Below the pieces are notes generated by a model, which saw only the letters and a program-made list of their open reading frames with translations, was not told the DNA's origin and did not search any database. A program made the translations under genes and the position numbers. This document shows, piece by piece, positions 35,308 to 49,161 of a DNA stretch of 64,000 bases. Origin of the DNA: Arthrobacter sp. Bz4. GTDB lineage: Bacteria > Actinomycetota > Actinomycetes > Actinomycetales > Micrococcaceae. The DNA lies in the NCBI RefSeq assembly GCF_003075455.1, contig NZ_QDAE01000003.1:62001-126000 (forward strand), given 5' to 3'. Positions within the stretch are counted from its first letter, which is position 1; each line of letters begins with the position of its first letter.

Positions 35308-36834
35308 CTAACCCGTCGGAGCAGTCAATCGGGGCCCCAGATCGCGATACTTGGCGGTCCGCCGGGTCAGGAGGGTGTCAATGGATTCCCCTGCCAGAGA
35401 CGACAGCTCGTACTCGATAGCTGCTCCCATCCGGAGGCAAAACGCCTTGGCTTCCTCGGCGGCGTCATCGCGCTCGTCCACCAGGTGGTCGACCAGCCCG
35501 TTGGCATGCAACGACGCTGCATTGACCCCTTGCGCTTCGGACAGCGCCGGCGCGAACTCGGTGCTCCGGTGCATGATCGCGCTGGCCCCCTCGGGTGGCA
35601 GCGGTGACAGCCAGGCGTGGTGGGCGGCGATGGTGCGGTCCGCAGGGAGGAGCGCCAGCGCTCCCCCGCCGGCGCCCTGTCCGAGCAGCACCGAAACCGT
35701 TGGTGACTGCAAGCCGATGAGGTCGTAAAGCGATCGGGCGATTTCGCCCGCAAGACCACCCTCCTCCGCCTCTCTGGACAGTGCGGCGCCAGCGGTATCA
35801 ATCACGGTCAGCAAGGGCAGGCCAAGTTCTTCGGCCAGTTTCATGCCTCGTCGCGCCTCGCGCAGCGACGCAGGACCCATTGAGCTTTCCGGTGCCACCC
35901 GGGACCTGTTATGGCCCAACACCACGCACGATTGGTGGCCGAAACGGGCAAGCGCCAACTGGAGACCGGGGTCCTTTTCGCCCTGGCCAGTGCCGTTGAG
36001 CGGCAGTACATCCTGGGCGGCCCAGCTGAGCAGTCTTCGCAGATCGGGGCGACGCCGGTTGCGGGAAATCTCGATGGAGGTCCAGGCGTCCACCGGGGAG
36101 GGTACGACGTCGAGGGTCGCCGGAGGTGGCACCGGTGCTGTTGCTTGCTGCGTCAGAACGTTCAGCGCGCGGTCAACGATTTCGGGGAGCAGCTCCGGAG
36201 GGACGACCGCATCAATGAGCCCCTTGTCGTACAGGTTCTCGGAGATCTGCACGTTCTCGGGGAACGGGGTGCCATACAGCGCCTCGTAGACCCGCGGGCC
36301 AAGGAAGCCGAGCAACGCGCCAGGTTCAGCGACGGTCACGTGGCCGAGGGAGCCCCAGGACGCCATGACGCCGCCGGTGGTCGGGTGCCGCAGATACACC
36401 AGGTACGGCAACCGCGCCCGCCGGTGGGTGCGCACGGCAGCCGAAATCTTCACCATCGACAGGAACGCGAGGGTGCCCTCCTGCATCCTGGTGCCGCCGG
36501 ATGCGGGCCCGGCGAGCAACGGAAGTTCCTCCCGGGTGGCCCGTTCGACTGCCTCGACAATCCGATTGGCGGCCGCCAGCCCGATGGAACCGGCAAGGAA
36601 CCGGAACTCGGAGACGATCACTGCCACGCGGCGGCCGCGGATCAGGCCCTCGCCGGTGATGACCGACTCGTCCACGCCGCTCTTCTCCCGGGCGGCCTGC
36701 AGCTCCCGCTCGTACCCCGCGTCCGGGTGCGGGCCGGGCACAGGTTTATCCCAGGCGGTGAAGGTACCCGGATCAAGAACCACGTCAATCAGTTCCGCTG
36801 CCGTGAGATGGCGCACCGGCTGGGTCGTCGTCAT
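35308..36834 (-). CDS. Fused AccD-AccA-like carboxyltransferase domain protein
   Basis: The 508-residue protein joins a beta-type carboxyltransferase half (about 1-255; GGTRMQEGTLAFLSMVKISA, PTTGGVMASWG, VAEPGALLGFLGPRV) to an alpha-type half (about 270-500; GPASLREARRGMKLAEELGL, IDTAGAALSREAEEGGLAGE, GQGAGGGALALLPADRTIAA). ATG 36834 (MTTTQPVRHLTAAELID) lies 1 bp after the CoA-transferase stop. The N-terminal four-Cys zinc ribbon of AccD is absent. No biotin carboxylase or carrier gene is in the operon. It may act as a malonyl-thioester decarboxylase, as fused or separate MdcD/MdcE subunits do, rather than in fatty acid synthesis. Confidence 0.8.
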   Translation of the reverse strand: MTTTQPVRHLTAAELIDVVLDPGTFTAWDKPVPGPHPDAGYERELQAAREKSGVDESVITGEGLIRGRRVAVIVSEFRFLAGSIGLAAANRIVEAVERATREELPLLAGPASGGTRMQEGTLAFLSMVKISAAVRTHRRARLPYLVYLRHPTTGGVMASWGSLGHVTVAEPGALLGFLGPRVYEALYGTPFPENVQISENLYDKGLIDAVVPPELLPEIVDRALNVLTQQATAPVPPPATLDVVPSPVDAWTSIEISRNRRRPDLRRLLSWAAQDVLPLNGTGQGEKDPGLQLALARFGHQSCVVLGHNRSRVAPESSMGPASLREARRGMKLAEELGLPLLTVIDTAGAALSREAEEGGLAGEIARSLYDLIGLQSPTVSVLLGQGAGGGALALLPADRTIAAHHAWLSPLPPEGASAIMHRSTEFAPALSEAQGVNAASLHANGLVDHLVDERDDAAEEAKAFCLRMGAAIEYELSSLAGESIDTLLTRRTAKYRDLGPRLTAPTG

Positions 36835-36835
36835 G

Positions 36836-38050
36836 CTAGGAGTCCTTCGCCAGCGCGTCGTCCAGCCAGCGCCGGATGTCGGCACCATCCTGGTCCAGCA
36901 GCGGAGGCGCGGTGTGGCTTGAGTTGGTGGTCTCCTGCTCGGAGCCATCGAAGAACCGCAACGGGGGGCCGGGGAGGCTGACCTTGCCCAGCAACTGGTG
37001 CTCGACGTCGATCAGCAGGCCCTGCGACTTCACCTGCTCCCACTCGTACACCTCATCGAGGGACCGGACCTTGCCCGCCGGAATGCCGGCTTCGTTGAGC
37101 TTTGCCAGCAGGGGCTCCGACTCGTACGCGGCGAAAGCCTGTTCGATCTCGCCGATCAGCAGGTCGCGGTTACGCACACGATCACCGTTGCTGGCGAACT
37201 CGGCGCGGTCGGCGTCGAGCCCGAAGGTTGTGGCGAACTTTTGCCACAGCTTCTCGCTGCCGACGCTGATCTGGACCTTCCCGGCGTCGCAGTTGAAGAG
37301 GCCGTAGGGTGCGATGGACGGGTGGTGGTTGCCCTGCGCCTTCGGCACCTCGCCGGCGACAGTGGTCCTGGTGCCCTGGAACGCGTGGACACCGACCAGC
37401 GCGGCAAGCAGCGAGGTCCGAACCACCTGGCCCTTGCCGGTTTTTTCCCTTTCCAGCAGTGCCGCCAGGGCGCCGTACGCCCCGTACATCCCGGAGAGGA
37501 GGTCAGCGATCGGCACACCGACGCGTTGCGGGTCATCCGGGCTGGGCCCGGTGAGTGACATCAGGCCTGCCTCGCCCTGCAGGATTTGGTCGTACCCGCT
37601 CCGGCTGGATTCTGGTCCGTCGTGCCCGAACCCGGTGATGGAGAGGACGACCAGGCGGGGGTTGAGCTGGTGCATTGCTTCGGTCGAGAATCCCAGGCGG
37701 TCCAGGACACCCGGCCGGAAGTTTTCGACGACGACGTCGGCCCGTTCCAGCAGGGCGGTCAGGACCTTCTTCCCGTCGTCGCTCTTCAGATCCAGGGCGA
37801 TCGATTCCTTGTTCCGGTTACAGGACAGGAAATATGTGGCCTGCGGGTTGTCCTCGGGCCCCACGAAGGGTGGGCCCCAGCCGCGGGTGTCATCGCCGGA
37901 ACCGGGGTTCTCCACTTTGATCACGCGGGCACCAAGGTCGGCCAGCATCATTGCAGCGTGGGGTCCGGCCAGGGCGCGGCTAAGGTCCACCACGAGGGTG
38001 CCGGCGAGTGGGCCGGACCGCTCTGCGGGGCTGGTAATAACGTCGGTCAT
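36836..38050 (-). CDS. Class III (CaiB/BaiF) acyl-CoA transferase
   Basis: The 404-residue protein moves CoA between carboxylic acids through an enzyme-bound aspartyl-CoA. The family start TLVVDLSRALAGPHAAMMLA, the segment ENFRPGVLDRLGF and the catalytic-aspartate region VPIADLLSGMYGAYGALAAL are present. It lies between the MatC-like carrier gene (48 bp) and the carboxyltransferase gene (1 bp). The inferred role is activation of the imported dicarboxylate to its CoA ester. Confidence 0.9.
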   Translation of the reverse strand: MTDVITSPAERSGPLAGTLVVDLSRALAGPHAAMMLADLGARVIKVENPGSGDDTRGWGPPFVGPEDNPQATYFLSCNRNKESIALDLKSDDGKKVLTALLERADVVVENFRPGVLDRLGFSTEAMHQLNPRLVVLSITGFGHDGPESSRSGYDQILQGEAGLMSLTGPSPDDPQRVGVPIADLLSGMYGAYGALAALLEREKTGKGQVVRTSLLAALVGVHAFQGTRTTVAGEVPKAQGNHHPSIAPYGLFNCDAGKVQISVGSEKLWQKFATTFGLDADRAEFASNGDRVRNRDLLIGEIEQAFAAYESEPLLAKLNEAGIPAGKVRSLDEVYEWEQVKSQGLLIDVEHQLLGKVSLPGPPLRFFDGSEQETTNSSHTAPPLLDQDGADIRRWLDDALAKDS

Positions 38051-38098
38051 GGTGATCTTTTTCCTTTCAGTGGGGTGTCCGGTTCCGGCGTTCAGGGC

Positions 38099-39475
38099 CT
38101 AGAGCCAGCCCGGCACCACGAGGACCAGCCAGGCGACCAGCGGTCCGACGACGACGATGATGCCGCCGTAGGCGAGGATCTGCTTGTAGAAGCGGTCCCT
38201 GTCAGTGCCCTCGGGGGCGTTGGCAAGTACCAACGCACCGTTGGTGGAGAACGGGGAAACGTCAACCACGGTGGAGGCGATGGACAGGGCGGCGATGACG
38301 CCGATCGCTCCGATTTCACCGGATTCCAGGAACGGGATGGCTAGCGGAATCAGCGCGGCGAGGATCGCCGTGGAGGAGGCGAACGCGGAGACGACTGCAC
38401 CGATGTAGCAGATCAGCAGGGCAGCGAGCAACGGCATGCCGAGGCTGGCGACACCGTCGGACACGTATTCGATGGTTCCGGCTTCCTGCAGGACACCCAC
38501 AAAGGTGAGCATGCCGCAGATCAGGAGCACCGTTGACCAGCTGATTTTTTCGACCGCACCCTTTTGGGACCGTGGAGAGATCAAGGCGAGGGCGACGGCG
38601 ATGGTGATGGCAACGAAGCCGACGTCGACCTTGAAGCCCAGCGCCACGACGGCGAGGACGATCAGACCGGCGATGGTGGCGAACTGCGCGAGAGTCTGCT
38701 TGTTCTCGGTGCCGACGGCGCCGTCGCTGGCTGGCTTGGCTTTGCCCTTGAGCGAGTCGGTGCCCGACCCGGTACCGCGGAAGTCGACGTCGGCACCCGA
38801 GGCGCGAGCGCCCACGCTGGCGTGCATCCGGGCATCGGCTGCGTTTTCGACGAACTGCTCGACCCGGGCGGAGAACAGTTTCCGGCCACCGAGAACCAGG
38901 AACAGGACGACGGCGATGAGGAAGTTGAAGATGAGGCTGGAGAGGAAGAGTGCCATGGGGCTGTAGTCGAAGCCGGTGTCGGCGACAATGCCGTTGACGA
39001 TGACGCCGTAGACGGCGATGGGCGAGAAGCCGCCGGCCTGTGCGCCGTGCACCACCATCATGCCCATCAGCAGCGGGCTGATCTTGTGCTTGGCCGCGAA
39101 ACCGAGCGCGACGGGTGCCATGATTGCTACGGCTGCGGGGCCGAGCGCGCCGACGGCGGTGATGACGCCCGTGATGACGAACATGATCCACGGGATCAGG
39201 GCCACCCGGCTGCGGACAAGTTTGACCGCTCCGCTGACCAGGAGGTCGATCGTGCCGTTGTTTTGGGCGATCGCAAAGAGATAGGTGACGCCAACCAGGG
39301 TGAGGAACAGGCCGCCGGGGAAGTTGGCAATGATGTCATCGGTTTCCATGCCGAGGAAGACTGCACCCAGCAGGAAAGCGCCAACAAAGGCGAGGGCACC
39401 CATATTGACGGGCAGCAAGGTAGCGATGAGGAACATCGCTGCCAGGATGATGATTGAGAGGAGTGGGACGGACAT
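38099..39475 (-). CDS. MatC-like dicarboxylate carrier (SLC13/CitMHS-type permease)
   Basis: The 458-residue protein has about 12 membrane segments and an N-terminal half resembling MatC_N, the domain of the Rhizobium malonate carrier MatC: NFPGGLFLTLVGVTYLFAIA, ALGPAAVAIMAPVALGFAAK, VHGAQAGGFSPIAVYGVIVN. A hydrophilic central loop (about 205-265) separates the halves; the C-terminal half has the second re-entrant signature near ASTVVDVSPFSTNGALVLAN. First gene of the three-gene operon and divergent from a GntR regulator, matching the mat gene layout. Confidence 0.82.
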   Translation of the reverse strand: MSVPLLSIIILAAMFLIATLLPVNMGALAFVGAFLLGAVFLGMETDDIIANFPGGLFLTLVGVTYLFAIAQNNGTIDLLVSGAVKLVRSRVALIPWIMFVITGVITAVGALGPAAVAIMAPVALGFAAKHKISPLLMGMMVVHGAQAGGFSPIAVYGVIVNGIVADTGFDYSPMALFLSSLIFNFLIAVVLFLVLGGRKLFSARVEQFVENAADARMHASVGARASGADVDFRGTGSGTDSLKGKAKPASDGAVGTENKQTLAQFATIAGLIVLAVVALGFKVDVGFVAITIAVALALISPRSQKGAVEKISWSTVLLICGMLTFVGVLQEAGTIEYVSDGVASLGMPLLAALLICYIGAVVSAFASSTAILAALIPLAIPFLESGEIGAIGVIAALSIASTVVDVSPFSTNGALVLANAPEGTDRDRFYKQILAYGGIIVVVGPLVAWLVLVVPGWL

Positions 39476-39622
39476 AGGTCTTCTTTCGCCAGTGAAAGTG
39501 TGATGTGACGCACGTTACCGGCGCACTGGACTAGACTGTTAGACACTGATCCATTTGTCAATTGTGACCTGCTCGCCCCCTAAACTGGCATGACATCTCC
39601 CCACTGACGTTGAGGACCGCTG
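39476..39622. promoter_or_regulatory. Divergent control region of MatC-like operon and gntR
   Basis: The 147-bp gap holds the small inverted repeat TGTTAGACA (39537-39545) and the nearby palindrome TTGTCAATTGTGA (39555-39567), candidate operators for the GntR protein. No -10/-35 pair stood out. Confidence 0.3.
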
Positions 39623-40324
39623 ATGAACGCACTGCCCGACCCACGGCAGCTTGGCCGCGCACCCCGGCCACGACTCTATGAGCAGCTGGTCGAGCAGATC
39701 CTCGTCTACATCGAGGACGCCCAACTGGGGCCCGGTGATCTCCTGCCCGCTGAGCGAATCCTTGCCGAACAACTAGGAGTTTCGCGGGCGACACTGGCTC
39801 AGGCGCTGGTGGCCCTCGAAGTGCTGGGCGTAATCGATGTGCAGCACGGCACGGGGGCGGTGCTGGTGTATCGGCCGAGCTTGGCAACGGTGATCAGGAA
39901 GCTACGTGAGCATCAGACCAGGCTGCCCGAGATCACCGAAGCACGCAGCACCCTCGAGGTGAAACTGGCCGCCCTTGCCGCTTCCCGGCGGACCGCAGCA
40001 GACCTGGCGGCTATTGACGCTGCCCTTGAAGCAATGGCCACCGAGGTGACGGCGGGCGGTCGGGGCACCCAGGGTGATGAGTCGTTCCATCAGGCGGTCA
40101 CCTCCGCCGCCCACTCCCCCGTGCTGGCCCAACTGATGGCGTTCATCGCGGAGATGGTATTGGAGACCCGGATTGAGTCACTGAGTCAGCCGGGGCGGCC
40201 CGAACAGTCACTGAAGTCGCATCGGATCATCGCCGAGGCGATCCGTTCCGGGAACCCGACGGCGGCCGCGGCGGCGATGCAGTCACACATCGATCTGGTC
40301 TCTGATGTGGCTTTGCTGAAGTAG
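39623..40324 (+). CDS. GntR family regulator with FCD ligand-binding domain
   Basis: The 233-residue regulator has a winged HTH (about 12-75; LGPGDLLPAERILAEQLGVS, then RATLAQALVALEVLGVIDV) and an all-helical FCD domain (about 85-225; LPEITEARSTLEVKLAALAA, FHQAVTSAAHSPVLAQLMAF, HRIIAEAIRSGNPTAAAAAM). FCD regulators bind carboxylic acids with a metal. Divergent from the MatC-like operon, it is the likely local regulator, equivalent to MatR. Confidence 0.9.
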   Translation: MNALPDPRQLGRAPRPRLYEQLVEQILVYIEDAQLGPGDLLPAERILAEQLGVSRATLAQALVALEVLGVIDVQHGTGAVLVYRPSLATVIRKLREHQTRLPEITEARSTLEVKLAALAASRRTAADLAAIDAALEAMATEVTAGGRGTQGDESFHQAVTSAAHSPVLAQLMAFIAEMVLETRIESLSQPGRPEQSLKSHRIIAEAIRSGNPTAAAAAMQSHIDLVSDVALLK

Positions 40325-40357: not shown

Positions 40358-40371
40358 GTGACTTTGGGCCC
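40358..40371 (+). promoter_or_regulatory. DosR/DevR-like box upstream of usp
   Basis: GTGACTTTGGGCCC matches 11 of 14 positions of the mycobacterial consensus GGGACTWWAGTCCC. A -10-like GACAGT begins 37 bp downstream (40395-40400), before a 5' leader with GGGAGG and the usp ATG. Confidence 0.65.
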
Positions 40372-40432
40372 TATCGGGTTGTGGTGCGGTGCAGGACAGT
40401 AGGTCTCCTAACCATCGCGCTGGGAGGCCACC

Positions 40433-41296
40433 ATGGAATCGTCAAAACCGATAGCCGTTGCAACCACTGATAATGCTCGTGGTCAGGCGGCGGTGACCTG
40501 GGCAGCCGCTCGCGCCGATCGTTATGGAGTGCCGCTGATTATTCTGCACGTCGTTGACGACCGCTGGGTCACCGAGGCGATTCCCTGGACGGAGAGCCTG
40601 ATGGACAACGGGCAGAAGCTGCTGGAAACCGCGGCACAACGTGTCCGCGGGAGCACCGGCGTCGACATCACCACCAAGCTGCTGGAGGGCAGTGTCGCTG
40701 GGGCGCTCGGCGAATTCTCGGCCAACGCGTCAATGCTGGTGGTTGGCTCCGGCAGCGCCCACCTGGGTGGCACGCTCACGGATAGGGCTCTGCAGATCGC
40801 GGCAACCGCCACCTGCCCAGTCGCAGTCATTGGGGATCATGCGGGAAACGGGAAGGGAGTTGTTGTTGGCGTCGACGGTTCGGAGGAATCCACCCAGGCG
40901 GTCGCCTTTGCCGCAGCCGAAGCCGACCGGAATGGCCAGGAATTAATTGTGGTGTATTCCCTGAACACGCCGAACCATCTCCTCGACAAGGGCCTCCTTT
41001 CGCCCAGCCTCGACAAAGCCCTCGAAGAGGAGGAACAGGTCGTGTTGTCTGAAACCGTTTCGGGCGTCCGGGAGGACTACCCGGGGCTTCTCGTGCGAAA
41101 GGTGATGGTGACCGACGCCAAACCCGCGGCGGCCCTGGTTCAGACAGCAGCCGGCGCCCACCTACTTGTGATCGGGAGTCGCGGTCGGGGAGGCTTCAGG
41201 CGGCTACTGCTGGGCTCGACTGCCCACGGGGTGCTTGGTCATCTGCCCTGTCCCACGGTGATTACCCCGATTCATAAAGTTAAGCATGACGACTAG
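40433..41296 (+). CDS. Tandem-domain universal stress protein
   Basis: The 287-residue protein carries two Usp domains (about 1-138 and 141-285). The second has a complete ATP-binding motif G-x2-G-x9-G-S/T in GSRGRGGFRRLLLGST; the first (VVGSGSAHLGGTLTDRALQI) is degenerate. Two-domain ATP-binding Usps are hallmark members of the mycobacterial DosR dormancy regulon, and a DosR-like box precedes this gene. It is first in the 40-50 kb stress block. Confidence 0.92.
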   Translation: MESSKPIAVATTDNARGQAAVTWAAARADRYGVPLIILHVVDDRWVTEAIPWTESLMDNGQKLLETAAQRVRGSTGVDITTKLLEGSVAGALGEFSANASMLVVGSGSAHLGGTLTDRALQIAATATCPVAVIGDHAGNGKGVVVGVDGSEESTQAVAFAAAEADRNGQELIVVYSLNTPNHLLDKGLLSPSLDKALEEEEQVVLSETVSGVREDYPGLLVRKVMVTDAKPAAALVQTAAGAHLLVIGSRGRGGFRRLLLGSTAHGVLGHLPCPTVITPIHKVKHDD

Positions 41297-41306
41297 GCGG
41301 CTGGCA

Positions 41307-41355
41307 GCGGCCAACTCACTCGTTGAAGGGTCTTTGGGCCCTAGGAGTTGGCCGC
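41307..41355. repeat. 11-bp inverted repeat flanking the PNPOx promoter box
   Basis: GCGGCCAACTC (41307-41317) and GAGTTGGCCGC (41345-41355) are perfect inverted copies separated by 27 bp that contain the DosR-like box. It could form a terminator-like stem after usp, though no T-tract follows, or a second protein-binding site. Confidence 0.6.
41328..41341 (+). promoter_or_regulatory. DosR/DevR-like box upstream of PNPOx-like gene
   Basis: GGGTCTTTGGGCCC matches 11 of 14 consensus positions. The -10 TAGGCT (41365-41370) starts 37 bp from the box start and is followed 7 nt later by ATG 41378, so the transcript is leaderless or nearly so. Confidence 0.7.
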
Positions 41356-41377
41356 AGATCGATCTAGGCTCGGGGTC

Positions 41378-41845
41378 ATGACTACCGGCGCTGAAATACC
41401 CAGGACCACTACCCTTTCCCCTGAAGAATGCTGGGAACTCTTCCGACGAGGTTCGATCGGCCGGCTAGCAGTCTGGGCCAACGAGCAGCCCGAGATTTTC
41501 CCCATCAACTACAGAATCGACGGCGGGGATTTCATCTTTCGGACAGGCCACGGTTCCAAGTTGGCCGCCGCTTTGGGCCAGCGGGTTGCACTGGAGGCGG
41601 ACGGAGTAGACAAGGAGGGGGTTATCGCCTGGAGTGTCGTTGTTAAAGGTCCCGCGTACAGGCTGGACCGCACTCCGGAGGTGCTCAACTCTGTGGGCCG
41701 TCTGCTCGTTCCCTGGGAGGCCGGCAAGAAGGATCATTTTGTTCGAATCGTTCCCGAAAGCATCAGCGGGCGACGGTTCCGAATCGCTGCGCCGCTCGCC
41801 TGGGGCGGTCGGTTGGATGACGCTATGCGTGCTGGGCTGGAATAA
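41378..41845 (+). CDS. Pyridoxamine 5'-phosphate oxidase-like (split-barrel flavin-binding) protein
   Basis: The 155-residue protein has the single split barrel: ECWELFRRGSIGRLAVWANE, IFPINYRIDGGDFIFRTGHG and a C-terminal FRIAAPLAWGG-like end. These proteins bind FMN or F420, and their reactions vary. Homologues are part of the mycobacterial DosR regulon, matching the box upstream. ATG 41378 is chosen because it sits at the predicted transcription start; an in-frame codon at 41348 lies upstream of the -10. The stop codon falls inside a 20-bp tandem duplication. Confidence 0.83.
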   Translation: MTTGAEIPRTTTLSPEECWELFRRGSIGRLAVWANEQPEIFPINYRIDGGDFIFRTGHGSKLAAALGQRVALEADGVDKEGVIAWSVVVKGPAYRLDRTPEVLNSVGRLLVPWEAGKKDHFVRIVPESISGRRFRIAAPLAWGGRLDDAMRAGLE

Positions 41846-41871
41846 GCGCCCCTAGGCTGGAATAAGCGCCC
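41835..41871. repeat. 20-bp tandem duplication across the PNPOx stop codon
   Basis: GGCTGGAATAAGCGCCC occurs at 41835-41851 and again at 41855-41871 with the spacer CTA, so the period is 20 bp. The first copy includes the TAA stop; the second is noncoding. Confidence 0.9.
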
Positions 41872-41887
41872 ATAAGCCCGCGCTGCC

Positions 41888-44329
41888 CTACTGCCCTGTC
41901 TGGCGGTTCTGACCTGTCTGGCGTTTCGAAGCTACTCGTGACTTCTCTGCCTCGGCGATGACCTGGACTGTGCGGAGAAAAGTATCGGGGTTCAGCGAGA
42001 TTGAGTCGATCCCCTGCTCGACCAGGAACGCCGCGAAATCCTCGTGGTCGCTTGGTCCCTGTCCACAAATGCCGATCTTTATTCCCGCCGCGTGAGCTTT
42101 GTCGATGGCACGCGAGATCATCCACTTGACGGCCTCGTCTCGTTCGTCAAACAGTTGTGCCAAATGCTCCGAATCGCGGTCGACGCCAAGGACCAGTTGT
42201 GTCAGATCATTGGAACCGATCGAAAACCCGTCAAAGTGCCGGGCGAACTCCGAGGCAAGAATAACGTTTGACGGTATTTCGCACATCATGTAGATCTGCA
42301 GTCCTTCGTCCCCCCGGACCAGACCGTTCTCCGCCATTACCTCGATGACCAGCTCTGCTTCGCGGAGCGTGCGGCAGAACGGCACCATCACCAGGACGTT
42401 CGCAAAGCCAAGCTGCTCGCGGACCCGCTTGATTGCGCGGCATTCAAGCGCAAATCCTTCCCGGTAACGCTCGTCATAGTAGCGCGAGGACCCGCGGAAC
42501 CCCAGCATCGGATTCTCTTCTGCGGTCTCAAAATAGCTTCCACCAATCAGATGGGCGTACTCGTTGCTTTTGAAGTCGCTGAGCCTGACGATGACCGGGC
42601 CCGGGTAATAAGGTGCTGCGATTTTTGCGATGCCCCGTGAGAGAACGTCAACGAAGTATTCAAGCAAAGTGTCATGACCGCGGGTGAGCTGTCTGATCTG
42701 CGCCATCTCGTCGGGATCAGTCACCAATTCCGGGTGAACAAGTGCCATCGGATGGATACGAATGAGGTTGTTGATAATGAATTCCATCCGTGCCAGGCCA
42801 ACGCCTGCCGCCGGGAGCCGCCACCATTGGAAGGCAGCGGCGGGGCTGGCGATATTGACCATGACCGCGGTGTTGGTCTCCGGCAGGGCGCCGAGGTCAA
42901 CTTCCTCCACCTCAAAGGCGAGCGTTCCCTCGTACACTCCCCCATCCTCACCGCCAGCACACGAGATGGTAATCGCCGATCCATCCTCAAGCAGCGAGGT
43001 TCCGTTCCCGGTACCCACCACGGCTGGTACGCCCAATTCCCGGCTGACAATCGCCGCATGGCTGGTGGGACCGCCATGATCGGTCACGATCCCCGCCGCC
43101 CGTTTCATCACCGGTACCCAATCCGGATCGGTCATCCTGGTGACCAGAATGGCGCCGTCCCGAAACTTGTCGATGTCCTGCGCATCAAGCACAACACAGG
43201 CGTCGCCGTGTGCGATTGCCTCGCCAATGGCCGCGCCTGAGAGGAGACGCCGCCCCGACTCCCGCAGGTGATACACGTTGAACGTGGTTTCGCTGCGTTG
43301 CGCCTGAACGGTCTCCGGGCGGGCCTGGACCATGAAGAGCTCCCCGGTTGATCCGTCCTTGGCCCACTCCATATCCATCGGCCGCTCGTAATGCTCTTCC
43401 ACCGAGACAGCCCAGCGGGCCAGCGTCAGGATCTCGTGGTCGGAAAGTACAATTGACTCCCGCTCCAGATCGGTCGTTTCTATCGTCCGCGTGCGTGCGT
43501 GCCCACCGCGGCTGTACACCATTTTTCGTTCCTTGGAGCCCACCGTCTTCTCGATGATCGGAACAAAGTGGGGTGTGGCAAGCAACGGCTTGAAGACCTG
43601 GTATTTATCCGGGTTGATACTTCCCTGAACGACAGTCTCTCCCAGGCCCCAGGCTGCGCTGATCACCACGCTGCGCGGAAAACCTGACTCCGTGTCGATG
43701 GAAAACATCACCCCCGACGCACCAAGATCCGAACGCACCATCAGCTGCACGCCGATCGACAGGGCGACGCTCACATGGTCGAATCCCTTCATCTCCCGGT
43801 AGCTGATCGCCCGATCGGTGAACAACGAGGCGAAACACCGTCTGCAGGCTTCAAGGAGTTCGCGTTCTCCCGAAATGTTCAAAAACGTCTCCTGCTGACC
43901 TGCGAAGCTTGCGTCGGGGAGGTCCTCTGCCGTCGCACTGCTACGCACTGCCACCGAGGCTGACGGCCTGCCGGTCCGGGAAGACAGCGCCCGATAGTGC
44001 CCAGTGATCTCGGCGGCGATGTCTGCAGGAAATTCGCCTTCCAGTATCAATGCCCGAATGGTCTCTCCTGCTTCCCGCAACGTCGACTCGCCAGCATGAT
44101 ACCGGTTGACCGTGTCACGAATGCCGGGTTCAATGCCGTTGACGGCGATGAAGGCCCGGTAGGCCGACGCAGTAGTGGCGAAACCGTCGGGGACCCGCAC
44201 ACCCGACCCGAGGAGGGAACGCGTGAGCTCGCCGAGTGACGCGTTCTTACCTCCGACCGAAGGCACGTCAGCTATTCCCACGTCTTGCAGCCACACCACG
44301 TACACGTCTGCACTCGCTGTTGAAGTCAT
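41888..44329 (-). CDS. ppsA: Phosphoenolpyruvate synthase (pyruvate, water dikinase)
   Basis: PEP synthase converts pyruvate, ATP and water to PEP, AMP and phosphate. The 813-residue protein has the N-terminal ATP-grasp domain (about 10-340; VGGKNASLGELTRSL, AVRSSATAEDLPDASFAGQQ), the mobile phosphohistidine domain with TDHGGPTSHAAIVSRELG (about 420-440), and the PEP/pyruvate TIM barrel (about 475-795; SIGSNDLTQLVLGVDRD, GICGQGPSDH). The last residues are a duplicated RQTGQ tail. ATG 44329 lies 6 nt after a -10 hexamer below a DosR-like box. Under oxygen limitation it could serve gluconeogenic or anaplerotic flux. Confidence 0.95.
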   Translation of the reverse strand: MTSTASADVYVVWLQDVGIADVPSVGGKNASLGELTRSLLGSGVRVPDGFATTASAYRAFIAVNGIEPGIRDTVNRYHAGESTLREAGETIRALILEGEFPADIAAEITGHYRALSSRTGRPSASVAVRSSATAEDLPDASFAGQQETFLNISGERELLEACRRCFASLFTDRAISYREMKGFDHVSVALSIGVQLMVRSDLGASGVMFSIDTESGFPRSVVISAAWGLGETVVQGSINPDKYQVFKPLLATPHFVPIIEKTVGSKERKMVYSRGGHARTRTIETTDLERESIVLSDHEILTLARWAVSVEEHYERPMDMEWAKDGSTGELFMVQARPETVQAQRSETTFNVYHLRESGRRLLSGAAIGEAIAHGDACVVLDAQDIDKFRDGAILVTRMTDPDWVPVMKRAAGIVTDHGGPTSHAAIVSRELGVPAVVGTGNGTSLLEDGSAITISCAGGEDGGVYEGTLAFEVEEVDLGALPETNTAVMVNIASPAAAFQWWRLPAAGVGLARMEFIINNLIRIHPMALVHPELVTDPDEMAQIRQLTRGHDTLLEYFVDVLSRGIAKIAAPYYPGPVIVRLSDFKSNEYAHLIGGSYFETAEENPMLGFRGSSRYYDERYREGFALECRAIKRVREQLGFANVLVMVPFCRTLREAELVIEVMAENGLVRGDEGLQIYMMCEIPSNVILASEFARHFDGFSIGSNDLTQLVLGVDRDSEHLAQLFDERDEAVKWMISRAIDKAHAAGIKIGICGQGPSDHEDFAAFLVEQGIDSISLNPDTFLRTVQVIAEAEKSRVASKRQTGQNRQTGQ

Positions 44330-44364
44330 GGCTCCATCTTGGCGAGCCAGACCCGGCAGAAGCA

Positions 44365-44378
44365 GAGTCTAAAGTCCC
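44365..44378 (-). promoter_or_regulatory. DosR/DevR-like box upstream of ppsA
   Basis: On the minus strand GGGACTTTAGACTC matches 12 of 14 consensus positions, the best of the set. CAAGAT (44341-44336) starts 37 bp from the box start, and the ppsA ATG follows 6 nt later. Confidence 0.72.
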
Positions 44379-44399
44379 GCCAGCAACCCTGCCTGAATA

Positions 44400-44413
44400 G
44401 GGTCGTAAGGCCC
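44400..44413 (+). promoter_or_regulatory. DosR/DevR-like box between ppsA and the GyrI-like gene
   Basis: GGGTCGTAAGGCCC (reverse GGGCCTTACGACCC) matches 11 of 14 positions in the reverse orientation. On the plus strand CACCCT (44437-44442) begins 37 bp from the box start and ATG 44449 follows 6 nt later. The box may also act as a distal site for ppsA, 35 bp from the proximal one. Confidence 0.6.
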
Positions 44414-44448
44414 TGTCACCGCTAACTCCCGGCCGACACCCTATTGGA

Positions 44449-44919
44449 ATGAGTGACAATGCACCCCAACCCACAAAAGTTCATACCCTGGAACAACCTG
44501 TTGCAGTGGTTCGCGAGCGTGTTCCGATGGACTCGCTCACTGACTTCTTCGGTCGTGCATTCCATCGGGTAATGGCCGCGACCCAGACGCAGGGCACCAA
44601 CCCTGCCGGTCCACCCTTCGCTCTTTACCATGGGATGCCGAGCGAGACCATCGACGTGGAGGCTGGGTTCCCGATCGCAGGACACTTCGCAGAAGCCGAC
44701 GGAGTGTCGCAGTCGGTGTTACCCGAGACCGATGCCTTTGAGGCCATCCATGTTGGTCCGTTCGACACCCTTGGCCAAACCTACGAGCTCCTTCAGGCCG
44801 CAATTGAGTCGGCGGGCCTCACCCCCGCGGATATCGCCTGGGAGTCCTATTTAACTGATCCGGAGGCGGAGCCCGACCCGTCAAAGTGGATCACCAAAGT
44901 TGTCTGGCCAGTGGCCTAA
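44449..44919 (+). CDS. GyrI-like/AraC effector-binding domain protein
   Basis: The 156-residue protein is a stand-alone SOUL/GyrI-type domain: PTKVHTLEQPVAVVRERVPM, GPPFALYHGMPSETIDVEAG and AESAGL-type middle, ending AWESYLTDPEAEPDPSKWIT. Such domains bind small molecules or, in E. coli GyrI (SbmC), gyrase. No DNA-binding domain is attached. The start codon lies at the predicted transcription start of a DosR-like promoter shared with ppsA. Confidence 0.83.
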   Translation: MSDNAPQPTKVHTLEQPVAVVRERVPMDSLTDFFGRAFHRVMAATQTQGTNPAGPPFALYHGMPSETIDVEAGFPIAGHFAEADGVSQSVLPETDAFEAIHVGPFDTLGQTYELLQAAIESAGLTPADIAWESYLTDPEAEPDPSKWITKVVWPVA

Positions 44920-44949
44920 GTGGTTCCCTCCCCACCCGAGGCTCACCTC

Positions 44950-45060
44950 ATGAACGTTCTTGTTGCCTACGCGACCTGGCACGGCTCAGTAATTTTGGGC
45001 AGTGCAGCCCATCTGACCCGCCGGCTGACATCGGCCAACGATCCCGTGGAACCGTCATGA
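44950..45060 (+). pseudogene. 36-codon flavodoxin-like N-terminal remnant coupled to the ABC transporter
   Basis: The frame reads MNVLVAYATWHGS, the first strand and phosphate loop of flavodoxin-domain proteins, then loses similarity and ends at a TGA overlapping the ABC ATPase start (ATGA). It is either the remains of a deleted flavodoxin gene or a short ORF kept for translational coupling. A complete flavodoxin gene occurs at 52838. Confidence 0.45.
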
Positions 45061-46019
45061 CGGCCGCCAGCCAGCTTCAGAGCGCTCCAATCCTGGGAGT
45101 GAACTCCCTGGTGAAGCGCTATGACAACCACACCGTTGTCAACGACGTCTCCTTCCACATTGAAGCCGGCGAAACGTATGGGCTCTTGGGCCCCAACGGC
45201 GCAGGTAAAACGACAATCATTTCAATGGTGGCGGGACTGATCCCTGCCGACTCCGGATCGGTCGAACTCATGGGTGCGGTCATGACGCCGACCAGCACCC
45301 GGGTAAAAGGGCACATTGGGCTCGTCCCTCAGGAACTTGCCATTTACCCGGATCTGACGGCCAAAGAGAATCTGATGTTCTTTGGCCGGTTGCAAGGGCT
45401 TGGGGGGAAGGAACTGAGGCAGCGGACGGACCTGGTCCTGAACCTTATTGGCCTCGGCGACCGTGCGCGAGAGCAGACCAAGAAATTCTCCGGCGGGATG
45501 AAACGCAGGTTGAACATTGGCATCGGCCTGCTCCACCGACCCACCCTGCTGATTTTGGATGAGCCAACCGTGGGGGTAGACCCACAGTCGCGCAATTCCA
45601 TCCTGGAATCCGTTGAGACTCTTGCCTCGGAGGGAATGGCTGTCCTGTACACCACCCACTATATGGAGGAAGCCGAACGGCTCTGCGACCGGATCGCGAT
45701 CATCGATCAGGGCCGGATTCAGGCGGAGGGCACCCGGAATCAGTTGGTCGAACTGACCGGCGGGGTGGACCGCATCGATCTGCGCGGCACCGGCAGCACC
45801 AGTAACGCAGCCACGGCGCTGCGGCAGCTCCCGGGCGTACAACAGGTCGATAGTGGTCCCTCAAACCTGCTGTTGACCGTCCACAACGGGCCAGGTCTTT
45901 TGGCACCCATTGTGGCCGAGGCCGGCGGTGCGGGAATGGCGCTGACTTCGGTGGAGATCGTCAGGCCCGATCTGGAATCGGTCTTCCTGCACCTCACCGG
46001 CAAAGCCCTGCGGGATTGA
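45057..46019 (+). CDS. ABC transporter ATP-binding protein (ABC-2/DrrA type)
   Basis: The 320-residue ATPase starts at ATG 45057 (MTAASQLQSAPILG). Walker A GPNGAGKTT, Q-loop VPQELAIYPDLTAKENL, signature FSGGMKRRLNIG, Walker B LLILDEPTVGVD and the H-loop region TTHYMEEAERLCDRI are all present, with a C-terminal extension as in DrrA-like exporters. It is followed by two permease genes with 1 bp and 4 bp junctions. The substrate is unknown; drug or lipid export is usual for this class. Confidence 0.93.
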   Translation: MTAASQLQSAPILGVNSLVKRYDNHTVVNDVSFHIEAGETYGLLGPNGAGKTTIISMVAGLIPADSGSVELMGAVMTPTSTRVKGHIGLVPQELAIYPDLTAKENLMFFGRLQGLGGKELRQRTDLVLNLIGLGDRAREQTKKFSGGMKRRLNIGIGLLHRPTLLILDEPTVGVDPQSRNSILESVETLASEGMAVLYTTHYMEEAERLCDRIAIIDQGRIQAEGTRNQLVELTGGVDRIDLRGTGSTSNAATALRQLPGVQQVDSGPSNLLLTVHNGPGLLAPIVAEAGGAGMALTSVEIVRPDLESVFLHLTGKALRD

Positions 46020-46020
46020 T

Positions 46021-47193
46021 GTGCGCGGGCTCAGGACCATGGTCTCCAATGACCTCAGGCTGCGGATCCGGGACCGGTCGGTGTTCATCTTCTCCCTCCT
46101 CGTTCCGTTGGCCTTGATGGGGGTTCTGAACCTCTCCTTTGGAGGTGGCGGAACGGACAGCGTCGACTTGCAGCCCGCCGTCGTCGTCGCAAGTTCTGAA
46201 AACAGCGGCCAGCTCGGGGAAGCGCTCCTCGAGGCCCTCGATACCCTCCCCATGATGGACGTCACCGTCACCAGGGTGGCTGCCGACGAGGTCAGCGGCG
46301 AAACAAGGGATACCGGGGCTGAGCTGGGGCTCATCCTGCCGGAAGGGTTCACGACTGCGGTAACTTCCGGGGAGGCCTCTACCGTCCAGGTCATCGAAGG
46401 TGATGTTGCAAGCATCGAAACCAATGTGCTGATCTCGGTGGTGGACGGGGTGCTTCAGCAGTTCGCTGCGGGCACCGTGACTGCCACGGCAGGCGGTATG
46501 GCCGGGCTTCCGGAGGACGAGCTAACCGGCCTGGCGCAACGGACAGCCGCTGGCCCGGCCGCCTTGACCCTTTCGGAAGGCCAGGCATCCGCCGAGCAAC
46601 TGTCACTCAGCGGCTCACTAGTGGCTGGTCAGACCGGTTTGTTCCTGTTGTTCACCGTCGGGTTTGGTGTTCTGGGACTGCTGGCGGAGCGGGAAGGTGG
46701 CACCCTGACCAGGCTACGGTCAGCTCCCGTCGCTCCCGGTACCATCATCTGGGCGAAGGCCCTGGTCGGGTTCATTCTGGGGGTGGTTGCCTCGTCCATC
46801 CTGCTGACGGTCGGTAGCCTGTTGTTTGACGTCTCGTTTGGGTCCCCGGCTGTGGTGGGGCTCCTGATCCTGGCGGTTGCGGCGGCGGCAACGAGCCTGA
46901 CCTTTGTCGTCGCGAAACTCGTGCGAAGCGCCGAACAGGCGAATGTCGCCCAATCGATCCTGGCCATGGTGCTGGGAGTCGCAGGCGGAGCCTTTTTTCC
47001 TTTGCAGACCTCAGGGATTGTCGCGACACTGATGGACTTTAACCCTATTTCAGCGTTCATTCGCGGACTCGGCATCACCTCCGGAGGCGGTGGGGTGGCG
47101 GACGTCGCTGTCCCCCTGGCGATCATGCTGGGATTTGCAGTCCTTGCCACCGTGATATCGCGCCTGCTGCCGGACCGGGGTGCCCGCTTGTGA
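46021..47193 (+). CDS. ABC-2 type permease, first subunit
   Basis: The 390-residue protein (GTG start) has one N-terminal membrane segment (about 18-38), a long extracytoplasmic region (about 40-195) and five C-terminal segments beginning GQTGLFLLFTVGFGVLGLLA. The cytoplasmic loop EREGGTLTRLRSAPVAPGTI is the ABC-2 coupling helix. The Ala/Thr/Glu-rich outside domain is typical of YhgE/ABC-2 exporters. Confidence 0.9.
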   Translation: MRGLRTMVSNDLRLRIRDRSVFIFSLLVPLALMGVLNLSFGGGGTDSVDLQPAVVVASSENSGQLGEALLEALDTLPMMDVTVTRVAADEVSGETRDTGAELGLILPEGFTTAVTSGEASTVQVIEGDVASIETNVLISVVDGVLQQFAAGTVTATAGGMAGLPEDELTGLAQRTAAGPAALTLSEGQASAEQLSLSGSLVAGQTGLFLLFTVGFGVLGLLAEREGGTLTRLRSAPVAPGTIIWAKALVGFILGVVASSILLTVGSLLFDVSFGSPAVVGLLILAVAAAATSLTFVVAKLVRSAEQANVAQSILAMVLGVAGGAFFPLQTSGIVATLMDFNPISAFIRGLGITSGGGGVADVAVPLAIMLGFAVLATVISRLLPDRGARL

Positions 47194-48356
47194 AACACAT
47201 CATGGGAATTGCCCTGGTAGAGTTTCAACGTTTCCTCCGGGACAGGTCGAACATCTTTTTTGTCTTCATTTTTCCTTTGCTCCTCATTCTGTTGCTCGGC
47301 TCCCAATTCGGGGCCAATAGCGGACGGTCCCAGGTGGCGCTGTCGGGCGGGTCCGGTACTGCCCTGGAAAGTGCTTTGAAGGTTCAGCTGGAAGAAGATG
47401 GCCTCCAGGTGTCGTTTGCCGGTGAGGAAACGGTGAAACAGCAGCTGGGCCGTGCCCGAATCGACGTCGGCATTTTCATCAGCGATGACGACGCCGCGGA
47501 CTACTCCGCGGGTCAGGAGGCCGACCTCGAGGTGATATCAGCGTCGCAGGCCTCGGCACAGGCCGTACTGCAGGAGGTGCGGACGTCAGTCCAGACGGTC
47601 AGCACAGCACAGCTACAGCGATCGCTCCTCCAGGAAGCGGGCGTCAGCGCGGCCGAGGCGACCACCGCCCTGGAGCGGGCGGAAACTTCTGTGGTACCCC
47701 CCGGACTGGAAATCGTGGACACCGACGACGTATCGCAGGAATTTTTGGGCTTGGGACGGTTCGATCTGGGCGCCACCCAGCAACTTCTGCTTTTCGTCTT
47801 CCTGAGCTCCCTCACCGGGGCTGCGACCCTCATCAACGCGCGGCGTCTCGGGGTGATCTCCCGCGTGATGGCCGCCCCGGTGACAAGCTGGCAGGCTGTG
47901 GCGGGGCAGGCACTGGGACGGTTCGGCATTGCCGTTGTCCAGGGGGCGTACATCATGGTTGGCACTGCTGTGCTGTTTGGCGTGCAGTGGGGCGATCCGT
48001 GGTTGGCAGGACTCGTTTTGGCGTTCTTCTGTGCGGTCTCCGCTGCTGCAGCGATGGTGATCGGCTCGGTCATGGATAACGACAGCGCCGCCTCGGGAGT
48101 GGGCGTGGGCCTCGGTCTCGTGTTGGCCGGTCTGGGCGGCTCGATGGTGCCCCCGGAGTTCTTCTCCGACACCCTTCAGACAGTGTCCCGGGTGACCCCG
48201 CACCGGTGGGCTTACGACGCGTTCGCTGAGATCCAACGACATGAAGGCACGTTGACTGACATTCTTCCGCAGCTTGCGGTGCTCGCAGGGATGGCTGTGG
48301 CTTTGCTGACCCTCGGCTCCATCCTGCTACGGCGCAGCCTCAGCAGGGCGCTCTAG
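47190..48356 (+). CDS. ABC-2 type permease, second subunit
   Basis: The 388-residue paralogue (GTG start, GTGA overlap with the first permease) has the same plan: N-terminal segment FFVFIFPLLLILLLGSQFG, external domain (about 45-205), and five segments from LLLFVFLSSLTGAATLINAR on. Two different permeases with one ATPase imply a heterodimeric exporter. Its last 4 bp overlap the convergent gene at 48353. Confidence 0.9.
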   Translation: MKHIMGIALVEFQRFLRDRSNIFFVFIFPLLLILLLGSQFGANSGRSQVALSGGSGTALESALKVQLEEDGLQVSFAGEETVKQQLGRARIDVGIFISDDDAADYSAGQEADLEVISASQASAQAVLQEVRTSVQTVSTAQLQRSLLQEAGVSAAEATTALERAETSVVPPGLEIVDTDDVSQEFLGLGRFDLGATQQLLLFVFLSSLTGAATLINARRLGVISRVMAAPVTSWQAVAGQALGRFGIAVVQGAYIMVGTAVLFGVQWGDPWLAGLVLAFFCAVSAAAAMVIGSVMDNDSAASGVGVGLGLVLAGLGGSMVPPEFFSDTLQTVSRVTPHRWAYDAFAEIQRHEGTLTDILPQLAVLAGMAVALLTLGSILLRRSLSRAL

Positions 48357-48706
48357 ACCAGACGCGCGCGTGCAATATTCCGGGCGTGGGTCCAGACAGC
48401 AAAAAAGATCAGCGGCACATGGATTGCGGGCAGGTTGTGGGCGAACCACCTGGGTAGGTAGATATCGGTCACCGAACCGGTGGAATCGCCGAGGCGTTGG
48501 GCCAGTGGGGTGAGCGGACAATGAAACCCGTTGCCGGCAAAAACAACAAGCTCGCTGCCGACAACGGCTGCAGCGACTCCCGCCCGCTGGTCTGTCCTTC
48601 CCCGTAACCCGGAGTAAAGCAGGTAAACCATGCATGCTTCGATGGAGAACCAGGCGGCGGTATGGAAGGACTTGACCGCCCGTAAGGCCCGCTGGTGTTC
48701 AGCCAT
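48353..48706 (-). CDS. Small membrane protein of unknown function with a CPLT motif
   Basis: The 117-residue protein has three predicted membrane segments (about 17-33, 44-62, 93-108). GNGFHCPLTPLAQRLGD and YLPRWFAHNLPAIHVP recall the CPLT-type DUF2784 family, though the match is not complete. The start (ATG 48706) follows AAAGGAG. A weak DosR-like box with a correctly spaced -10 lies upstream. I cannot assign a function. Confidence 0.7.
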   Translation of the reverse strand: MAEHQRALRAVKSFHTAAWFSIEACMVYLLYSGLRGRTDQRAGVAAAVVGSELVVFAGNGFHCPLTPLAQRLGDSTGSVTDIYLPRWFAHNLPAIHVPLIFFAVWTHARNIARARLV

Positions 48707-48765
48707 GGGTGGCTCCTTTCGCCCTCGTTGGCCTCCAGAGTGCACCCATCTGCGGCCAAGTGGCA

Positions 48766-48779
48766 GAGTCCAAGGGCCT
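48766..48779 (-). promoter_or_regulatory. Weak DosR/DevR-like box upstream of the CPLT membrane protein
   Basis: On the minus strand AGGCCCTTGGACTC matches 9 of 12 positions shared by the boxes at 40358 and 41328 (GGG-N-CTTTGG-N-CCC). CACTCT (48742-48737) begins 37 bp from the box start, the same spacing as at the other sites. Confidence 0.45.
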
Positions 48780-48807: not shown

Positions 48808-49161
48808 ATGGACTTCCTTCGCCTTCTGCTCGTCTTTCTCCACATTCTCGGTACGGCCGCCATCGTGGGCGGCTGGTTGGCCACATTCAAGCACCCCACC
48901 GTCACGCAGTGGCAGTGGATCGGCGCCCTCACCCAACTGGTCACGGGCCTGCTGCTGGTGGGTCTCGCTGAGATGGGCGACGGCGACGGCCCGAACCACG
49001 CCAAAATAGCCGTCAAGCTGGTCCTGACCATCGGCGTGGTTGTCGCCGCGTTCATCGGCCGCCGTAAGGCCAAGTCCGGACACGACGTCGCTAAGGGACT
49101 GGCGCACGGCGTCGGCGGTCTTGCACTGATCAACGTCGCGGTAGCAGTCTTCTGGAGCTAG
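48808..49161 (+). CDS. Small integral membrane protein, unknown function
   Basis: The 117-residue protein starts MDFLRLLLVFLHILGTAAIV and has three to four membrane segments (about 5-22, 36-54, 65-80, 98-115). VGGWLATFKHP and WIGALTQLVTGLLLVGLAEM are its most distinctive stretches; I do not recognise a named family. TATGCT (48796-48801) followed by 6 nt and the ATG suggests a leaderless transcript. It converges with pfkB, overlapping by 4 bp. Confidence 0.75.
   Translation: MDFLRLLLVFLHILGTAAIVGGWLATFKHPTVTQWQWIGALTQLVTGLLLVGLAEMGDGDGPNHAKIAVKLVLTIGVVVAAFIGRRKAKSGHDVAKGLAHGVGGLALINVAVAVFWS

Follow-up and report, generated by a model that had tools for sequence, protein, structure and literature searches.

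We analysed a 64,000-nucleotide (nt) window of the Arthrobacter sp. Bz4 genome (positions 62001-126000 of contig C3, in an assembly of 3.41 Mb and 80 contigs), in which five promoters share a 14-base-pair (bp) box resembling the binding site of the mycobacterial response regulator DosR (DevR). The boxes, the -10 hexamers and the genes behind them are listed below in window coordinates. Boxes and hexamers were located by direct reading, and the matches were counted against GGGACTWWAGTCCC; protein lengths are in amino acids (aa).

40358..40371, plus strand: DosR-type box of usp, GTGACTTTGGGCCC, then T (11/14)
40395..40400, plus strand: usp -10 hexamer, GACAGT
40433..41296, plus strand: usp, universal stress protein with two Usp stretches, 287 aa (Pfam PF00582, 7.2e-41)
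41328..41341, plus strand: DosR-type box of the PNPOx-like gene, GGGTCTTTGGGCCC, then T (11/14)
41365..41370, plus strand: -10 hexamer of the PNPOx-like gene, TAGGCT
41378..41845, plus strand: PNPOx-like split-barrel flavoprotein, 155 aa, predicted leader of about 1 nt (Pfam PF12900, 6.3e-26)
44365..44378, minus strand: DosR-type box of ppsA, GGGACTTTAGACTC, then T (12/14)
44336..44341, minus strand: ppsA -10 hexamer, CAAGAT
41888..44329, minus strand: ppsA, phosphoenolpyruvate (PEP) synthase, 813 aa, predicted leaderless (NCBIfam NF005057, 1124.3 bits, cut-off 598; Pfam PPDK_N and PEP-utilizers)
44400..44413, plus strand: DosR-type box of the GyrI-like gene, GGGTCGTAAGGCCC, then T (11/14)
44437..44442, plus strand: -10 hexamer of the GyrI-like gene, CACCCT
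44449..44919, plus strand: GyrI-like small-molecule-binding protein, 156 aa, predicted leaderless (Pfam PF06445, 1.2e-10)
48766..48779, minus strand: weak DosR-type box of the CPLT gene, AGGCCCTTGGACTC, then T (8/14)
48737..48742, minus strand: -10 hexamer of the CPLT gene, CACTCT
48353..48706, minus strand: CPLT gene, encoding a small FHCPLT-motif protein of 117 aa (without a family in Pfam or NCBIfam at E<=0.001)

Both elements of every pair stand where the original prediction had placed them: all five hexamers carry A at the second and T at the sixth position (A2/T6), and their first base lies exactly 37 bp from the box start. The ppsA and CPLT boxes are read on the minus strand, so they start at 44378 and 48779. 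The match strength of 11 to 12 of 14 positions held for four sites, and the last site, described as weaker, reaches 8. The prediction had also put four genes at or near the expected start of transcription; we count three, with ppsA and gyrI beginning 6 nt and the PNPOx-like gene 7 nt after the hexamer, and these are predicted to be leaderless or nearly so. The usp and CPLT genes begin 32 and 30 nt after it. A plus-strand frame at 48811 was considered as the CPLT gene and rejected for the minus-strand frame given above, whose product was present, at E<=1e-8, only in this genome and two relatives (G007 and G009) among the 38 genomes searched.

For a chance expectation, we used 200 random windows of the same first-order (Markov) composition and counted oriented matches at a box threshold of at least 11/14. 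Boxes alone were not remarkable (16 in the window against 10.8 +/- 4.5), whereas six boxes had A2/T6 at +37, against 0.37 on average and never more than 3 in the random windows. Four of the six are the sites of usp, PNPOx, ppsA and gyrI, and the other two are the gyrI box in its reverse reading (44413-) and a match unrelated to these (17153-); the CPLT box falls under the threshold and thus outside this count. The sites had been expected to be commoner than in shuffled sequence, which is true of the box plus step in the window but not of the raw genome-wide count. There, the IUPAC pattern with the step and at most one mismatch gave 34 matches against 78 for the reversed-pattern control, so that the pattern alone is a poor predictor of targets. 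Of the 34, all but one (C16:42554) were examined, and 11 lie ahead of plausible target genes: PNPOx (2), Usp (3), P-type ATPase (2), ppsA, gyrI, dosR and an ADH-like gene of uncertain start. If the shared box were a chance similarity in a G+C-rich genome, picked out by eye, then the unremarkable box count, the higher reversed control and the unrelated member of the six would be accommodated, but none of the 200 random windows reached four sites with the right step, and the step and an unselected T after the box recur in other dosR-bearing genomes; we consider chance extremely improbable.

A DosR homologue, the presence of which had been set beforehand as a test of the prediction, is encoded on contig C2 together with a linked DosS/DosT-like kinase.

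C2:8148-8807: DosR-type response regulator, NarL-type, 219 aa (best solved-structure match DevR 3c3w, 2.9e-62, 213 bits)
C2:8959-10626, minus strand: DosS/DosT-type histidine kinase with GAF, HisKA_3 and HATPase_c domains (Pfam), adjoining dosR

The second-best structure match of the regulator was VraR, at 124 bits, and the nearest NCBIfam model was MadR, at 154.5 bits and far under its cut-off of 300. With positions counted on the alignment, the regulator keeps the residues matching DevR D54, T82, K104, K179, K182 and N183, which we take to have phospho-acceptor or DNA-contact roles. The GAF-A domain of the kinase is closest to DosT (2vzw, 4.7e-48) and DevS. It retains a histidine at DevS H149 and a tyrosine at Y171 (also counted on the alignment), for which we assume the DevS roles, H149 being presumably the heme histidine. 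At the DevS E87 position it has glycine, like DosT and the deposited chain 2y8h, which we take to be an E87G mutant. The closest named dosR loci among the matches listed were those of Arthrobacter sp. 260, H5 and H20 (92-93% identity), a set from which the records nearest to this genome may be absent.

Seventeen GerE-domain matches were found in the genome, several in response-regulator-sized frames, and the boxes are mostly GGGTC or GGGCC, not strictly GGGAC. Both facts would suit another NarL/LuxR-type regulator that recognizes a similar palindrome, in which case DosR would not regulate the window genes. We regard this as unlikely. The DosR-type regulator is the sole match to DosR at E<=1e-35 in its own genome and keeps the DevR contact residues, the dosR promoter itself carries a box (C2:8078, with the -10 at +37), and the sites track dosR across the genus. 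In addition, OsdR of Streptomyces coelicolor reads GGGCC-type boxes (PMC5069765).

Across this genome, 14 promoters have the same geometry, namely the five of the window (usp, PNPOx1, ppsA, gyrI and CPLT) and nine elsewhere.

Contig C2: dosR, PNPOx2 and a usp
Contig C14: PNPOx3, PNPOx4, a usp, a P-type ATPase divergent from that usp, and another P-type ATPase
Contig C19: the ADH-like gene

These promoters were drawn from the window and 24 stretches (about 432 kb) partly chosen for holding matches, with A2/T6 at +37 required, so 14 should not be taken as a complete or unbiased total. In 14/14 the box is followed by T, a base that played no part in site selection. Seven of the genes start 6-7 nt after the -10, and no tandem partner box was found 20-24 bp upstream in the 14 promoters (mean 7.1 of 14 at 22 bp). 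For comparison, leaderless transcripts make up 24% in M. smegmatis (PMC6448022). The prediction that the encoded functions fit a DosR regulon was borne out for Usp, the PNPOx-like protein and PEP synthase. Upstream of PfkB, the box scans gave no box of the 37-bp-step geometry. P-type ATPases are mycobacterial DosR targets as well. The target set found here (Usp, PNPOx-like, P-type ATPase, ADH and PEP/pyruvate enzyme genes) agrees with the OsdR list (PMC5069765, Table 1).

The geometry of the sites recurs in relatives that carry dosR, which supports the original prediction. Of 23 same-genus relatives, 14 have DosR (at least 72% identity); exactly these 14 also have the kinase (E<=1e-30), which occurred in 0/9 of the others. 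Strong PNPOx matches (E<=1e-27) were present in 14/14 DosR-positive relatives versus 1/9 of the others (Fisher 1.8e-5), and the one DosR-negative relative with such a match, G002, has no box there. For dosR itself, the promoters of 16/16 copies examined (15 genomes, this one included) carry a box scoring 13/14 or better and a -10 exactly at +37; 21 copies were listed in the genus, five of them outside the loci covered. A box scoring 11/14 or better, followed by TANNNT at +37, occurs at 17 of 21 PNPOx loci from DosR-positive genomes (this genome included) and at none of the four from DosR-negative ones; for two of the four misses (G007 and G009), PNPOx lies directly behind usp and the box is upstream of usp. 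Usp has a box of at least 13/14 at step 37 in 8/15 DosR-positive and 0/9 DosR-negative loci, although two of the latter do show 12/14 matches with A2/T6 at +37. A GyrI relative in G003 has its own box with the -10 at +37. Pooling the loci of DosR-positive relatives (this genome excluded), A2/T6 stood at +37 in 32 of 66 oriented perfect sites, the next-best offset reaching 9; the sites are partly orthologous, so that these counts overstate independence and do not represent 32 independent events. The loci of DosR-negative relatives, which surround other genes (Usp, distant PNPOx, regulators) and are not matched neighbourhoods, held 0 perfect sites in 56,022 bases.

Copy number varies among these relatives. 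G003, G005, G008 and G023 have two to three DosR copies per genome at the same identity threshold, one copy being partial in G003 and one having an internal stop in G005, and G003, G008 and G023 each gave more than one kinase match.

Besides the genome-wide pattern count, the partial orthology and the unmatched neighbourhoods, several observations weigh against a DosR-type regulon at these promoters. In the DosR-positive genomes, 7/15 Usp loci are without a clear site at +37, and the usp genes of G007 and G009 (orthologues L222 and L223) keep the box with a -10 shifted by one base, to a step of 38. Among 55 oriented sites of at least 13/14 in five named loci (four from Arthrobacter and one from a Micrococcaceae metagenome-assembled genome, MAG), 11 have step 37 and 8 have step 38. 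For ppsA, no match was found at E<=1e-100 in the 23 same-genus relatives, which left no footprinting within the genus, and its matches in three other genera have no box of the DosR type upstream. The GyrI relative in G007 has no box either, and the CPLT box is absent from 2/2 orthologues found.

This last result bears on the extent of the regulon, as DosR might bind the four strong sites while the CPLT site is a chance match and the CPLT gene stands outside. The 8/14 match, the 30 nt to the gene start and the two orthologues without a box speak for such a restriction, against which stand the -10 exactly at +37, the T following the box as at the other sites, and the position of the CPLT gene, adjoining PNPOx in G007 and about 1.1 kb from it in G009. 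We consider the restriction almost an even call, and the CPLT site is doubtful.

With all points weighed, the window very probably holds part of a DosR/DevR/OsdR-type regulon. The original prediction had spoken of a hypoxia/nitric oxide (NO) mini-regulon outside mycobacteria. The regulator, the kinase and the conservation of the sites support a regulon, and control by hypoxia or NO would be expected by homology. Its occurrence outside mycobacteria is not new, since DosR-type regulons are already known there, OsdR being an example (PMC5069765).

Under the mechanism we propose, the GAF-domain kinase next to dosR would sense oxygen loss or NO binding at its heme and phosphorylate the DosR-type response regulator. 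The regulator would then bind the 14-bp GGGNCNWWNGNCCC box at about -49 to -36, which would abut, or overlap by one base, a minimal -35-like CTR at -36 to -34. A 17-18-bp spacer and a weak -10 (A-11, T-7) would complete the promoter, and the 37-bp step, read as the sum of these parts, fits a putative class II activator site. Such promoters would drive the induction of Usp, PNPOx-like flavoproteins, P-type ATPases, PEP synthase, the GyrI-like protein and dosR, several of them from leaderless mRNAs.

The box spans -49 to -36 when the first base of the -10 is numbered -12. At 55 relatives' sites with the step, T occupied -35 in 53 and a purine -34 in 51, against a T after the box in 26/111 relatives' sites without the step; this T was never used for selection. 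The first -10 base was T in just 12/55 sites, so the -10s are weak. We extended the analysis to L073-L147, a set of 75 named dosR loci that excludes Arthrobacter and the Micrococcaceae MAG, in which 214 oriented perfect sites showed step 37 in 40, step 59 in 31 and step 60 in 25, with every other step at 9 or less. In a slightly smaller cut of these sites, T followed the box in 31/39 cases at step 37 versus 6/54 at 59/60, and since it is frequent at the one and rare at the other, we read it as part of the promoter. It would most simply be the CTR version of the -35 TTG, sharing the final C of the box with it. A contrary point is that the 16-nt OsdR consensus AGGGCCGATCGGCCCT (PMC5069765) and a stringent M. 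smegmatis DosR consensus GGGACTTNNGNCCCT (PMC6448022) both end in T, which would make the T a matter of recognition.

The sites with longer steps differ in their surroundings. Step-59 sites of L073-L147 have a weaker box 22 bp downstream (mean 10.8/14 versus about 7 in the surroundings, at least 11 in 21/31), step-60 sites average 10.7 at 22 bp downstream with 11/25 reaching 11 at 23 bp, and step-37 sites have on average a weak upstream partner (9.4 at 22 bp). When the mycobacterial consensus alone (at least 12/14) was run over 80 named dosR loci, 82 oriented sites resulted, with step peaks at 37 (14), 59 (18) and 60 (10). Four shuffled palindromes gave 2, 12, 118 and 30 sites in the same loci, with a largest single-step count of 9; the number of sites thus varies with the motif chosen, and the step alone is informative. 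Within the genus, 9/16 dosR copies have a second box of at least 13/14 located 24-35 bp upstream, and the single-box form therefore characterizes this genome and not the genus; we claim it for this genome only.

From these patterns, we tentatively suggest a two-step grammar of the DosR family across actinobacteria, which is a possibility somewhat short of being probable. The strong box would either touch the CTR with the -10 at +37, or lie 22-23 bp (two helical turns) further up with the -10 at +59/60 and a weaker box at the +37 place. This genome would represent a single-box, often leaderless form with one DosT-like kinase, in which case its switch would respond in a graded, non-cooperative way, in contrast to the cooperative one of M. 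tuberculosis.

Additional observations were made in the relatives and in the window. In G007 and G009, a phosphoketolase gene (L295:3692 and L296:3548, respectively) begins 7 nt after a -10 placed at +37 of a DosR-type box, and a leaderless DosR-type promoter is predicted in both. The L295 protein matches NCBIfam NF003619 at 1470.8 bits, and the L296 frame has a similar N-terminus. A scan of C2:20001-40000 of the Bz4 genome gave no promoter of this phosphoketolase type. In the window, a strong 12/14 box at 2232-2245 (GGGTCGAAAGTCCC) was left out because it lies inside long frames and has no -10 at +37 in either orientation. It resembles a decoy, and the 14-mer recurs unchanged at C14:40754, ahead of the gene for a 1047-aa glycosyl hydrolase 65/HAD protein. 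The region 35308-40324 contains frames that by eye resemble a carboxyltransferase, a CoA-transferase and a carboxylate permease, and then a GntR/FCD regulator (Pfam); it is perhaps an organic-acid catabolic cluster adjoining the usp gene.

A literature search covering titles, abstract openings and the top of long lists retrieved no report of a DosR regulon in Arthrobacter. Within such listings, the Arthrobacter regulon and the two-step grammar with its unselected T are apparently undescribed. The case would provide a testable low-oxygen regulon from a soil genus that is common, complete with sensor, regulator and 14 promoters as predicted here. The fixed 37-bp step also receives a simple physical reading (box, T, purine and -10 at +37), by which targets throughout the DosR family could be predicted more sharply.

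Among known systems, OsdKR of S. coelicolor has the same arrangement of a DosR-type regulator adjoining a DosS-like kinase, and a similar gene set (PMC5069765). OsdR binds DevR sites, and its predicted targets include osdR, several Usp genes, a zinc ADH, pyruvate phosphate dikinase and the PNPOx-like SCO0214, whose site, listed at -50, is close to the box-to-start distance in the Arthrobacter promoters (PMC5069765). OsdKR belongs to another actinobacterial order, whereas the Arthrobacter set has PEP synthase in place of pyruvate phosphate dikinase, includes a GyrI-like gene and shows no upstream partner box 20-24 bp away in its 14 promoters. Owing to the close kinship in gene set and geometry, the Arthrobacter case joins a known system.

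The M. tuberculosis DosR/DevR system shares the regulator, matched through DevR, and the kinase GAF-A, matched through DosT and DevS. There, the start-proximal DevR site overlaps the -35 element, and one-site DevR targets have also been described (PMC3029386). Arthrobacter differs in having one kinase (E<=1e-30) with the DosT-type glycine at E87 instead of DosS plus DosT, in boxes that depart from GGGAC, and in single boxes at its 14 promoters instead of cooperative pairs. If it holds, this variant with single boxes and a single kinase would lend itself to comparison with the M. tuberculosis system, which is cooperative and has two kinases.

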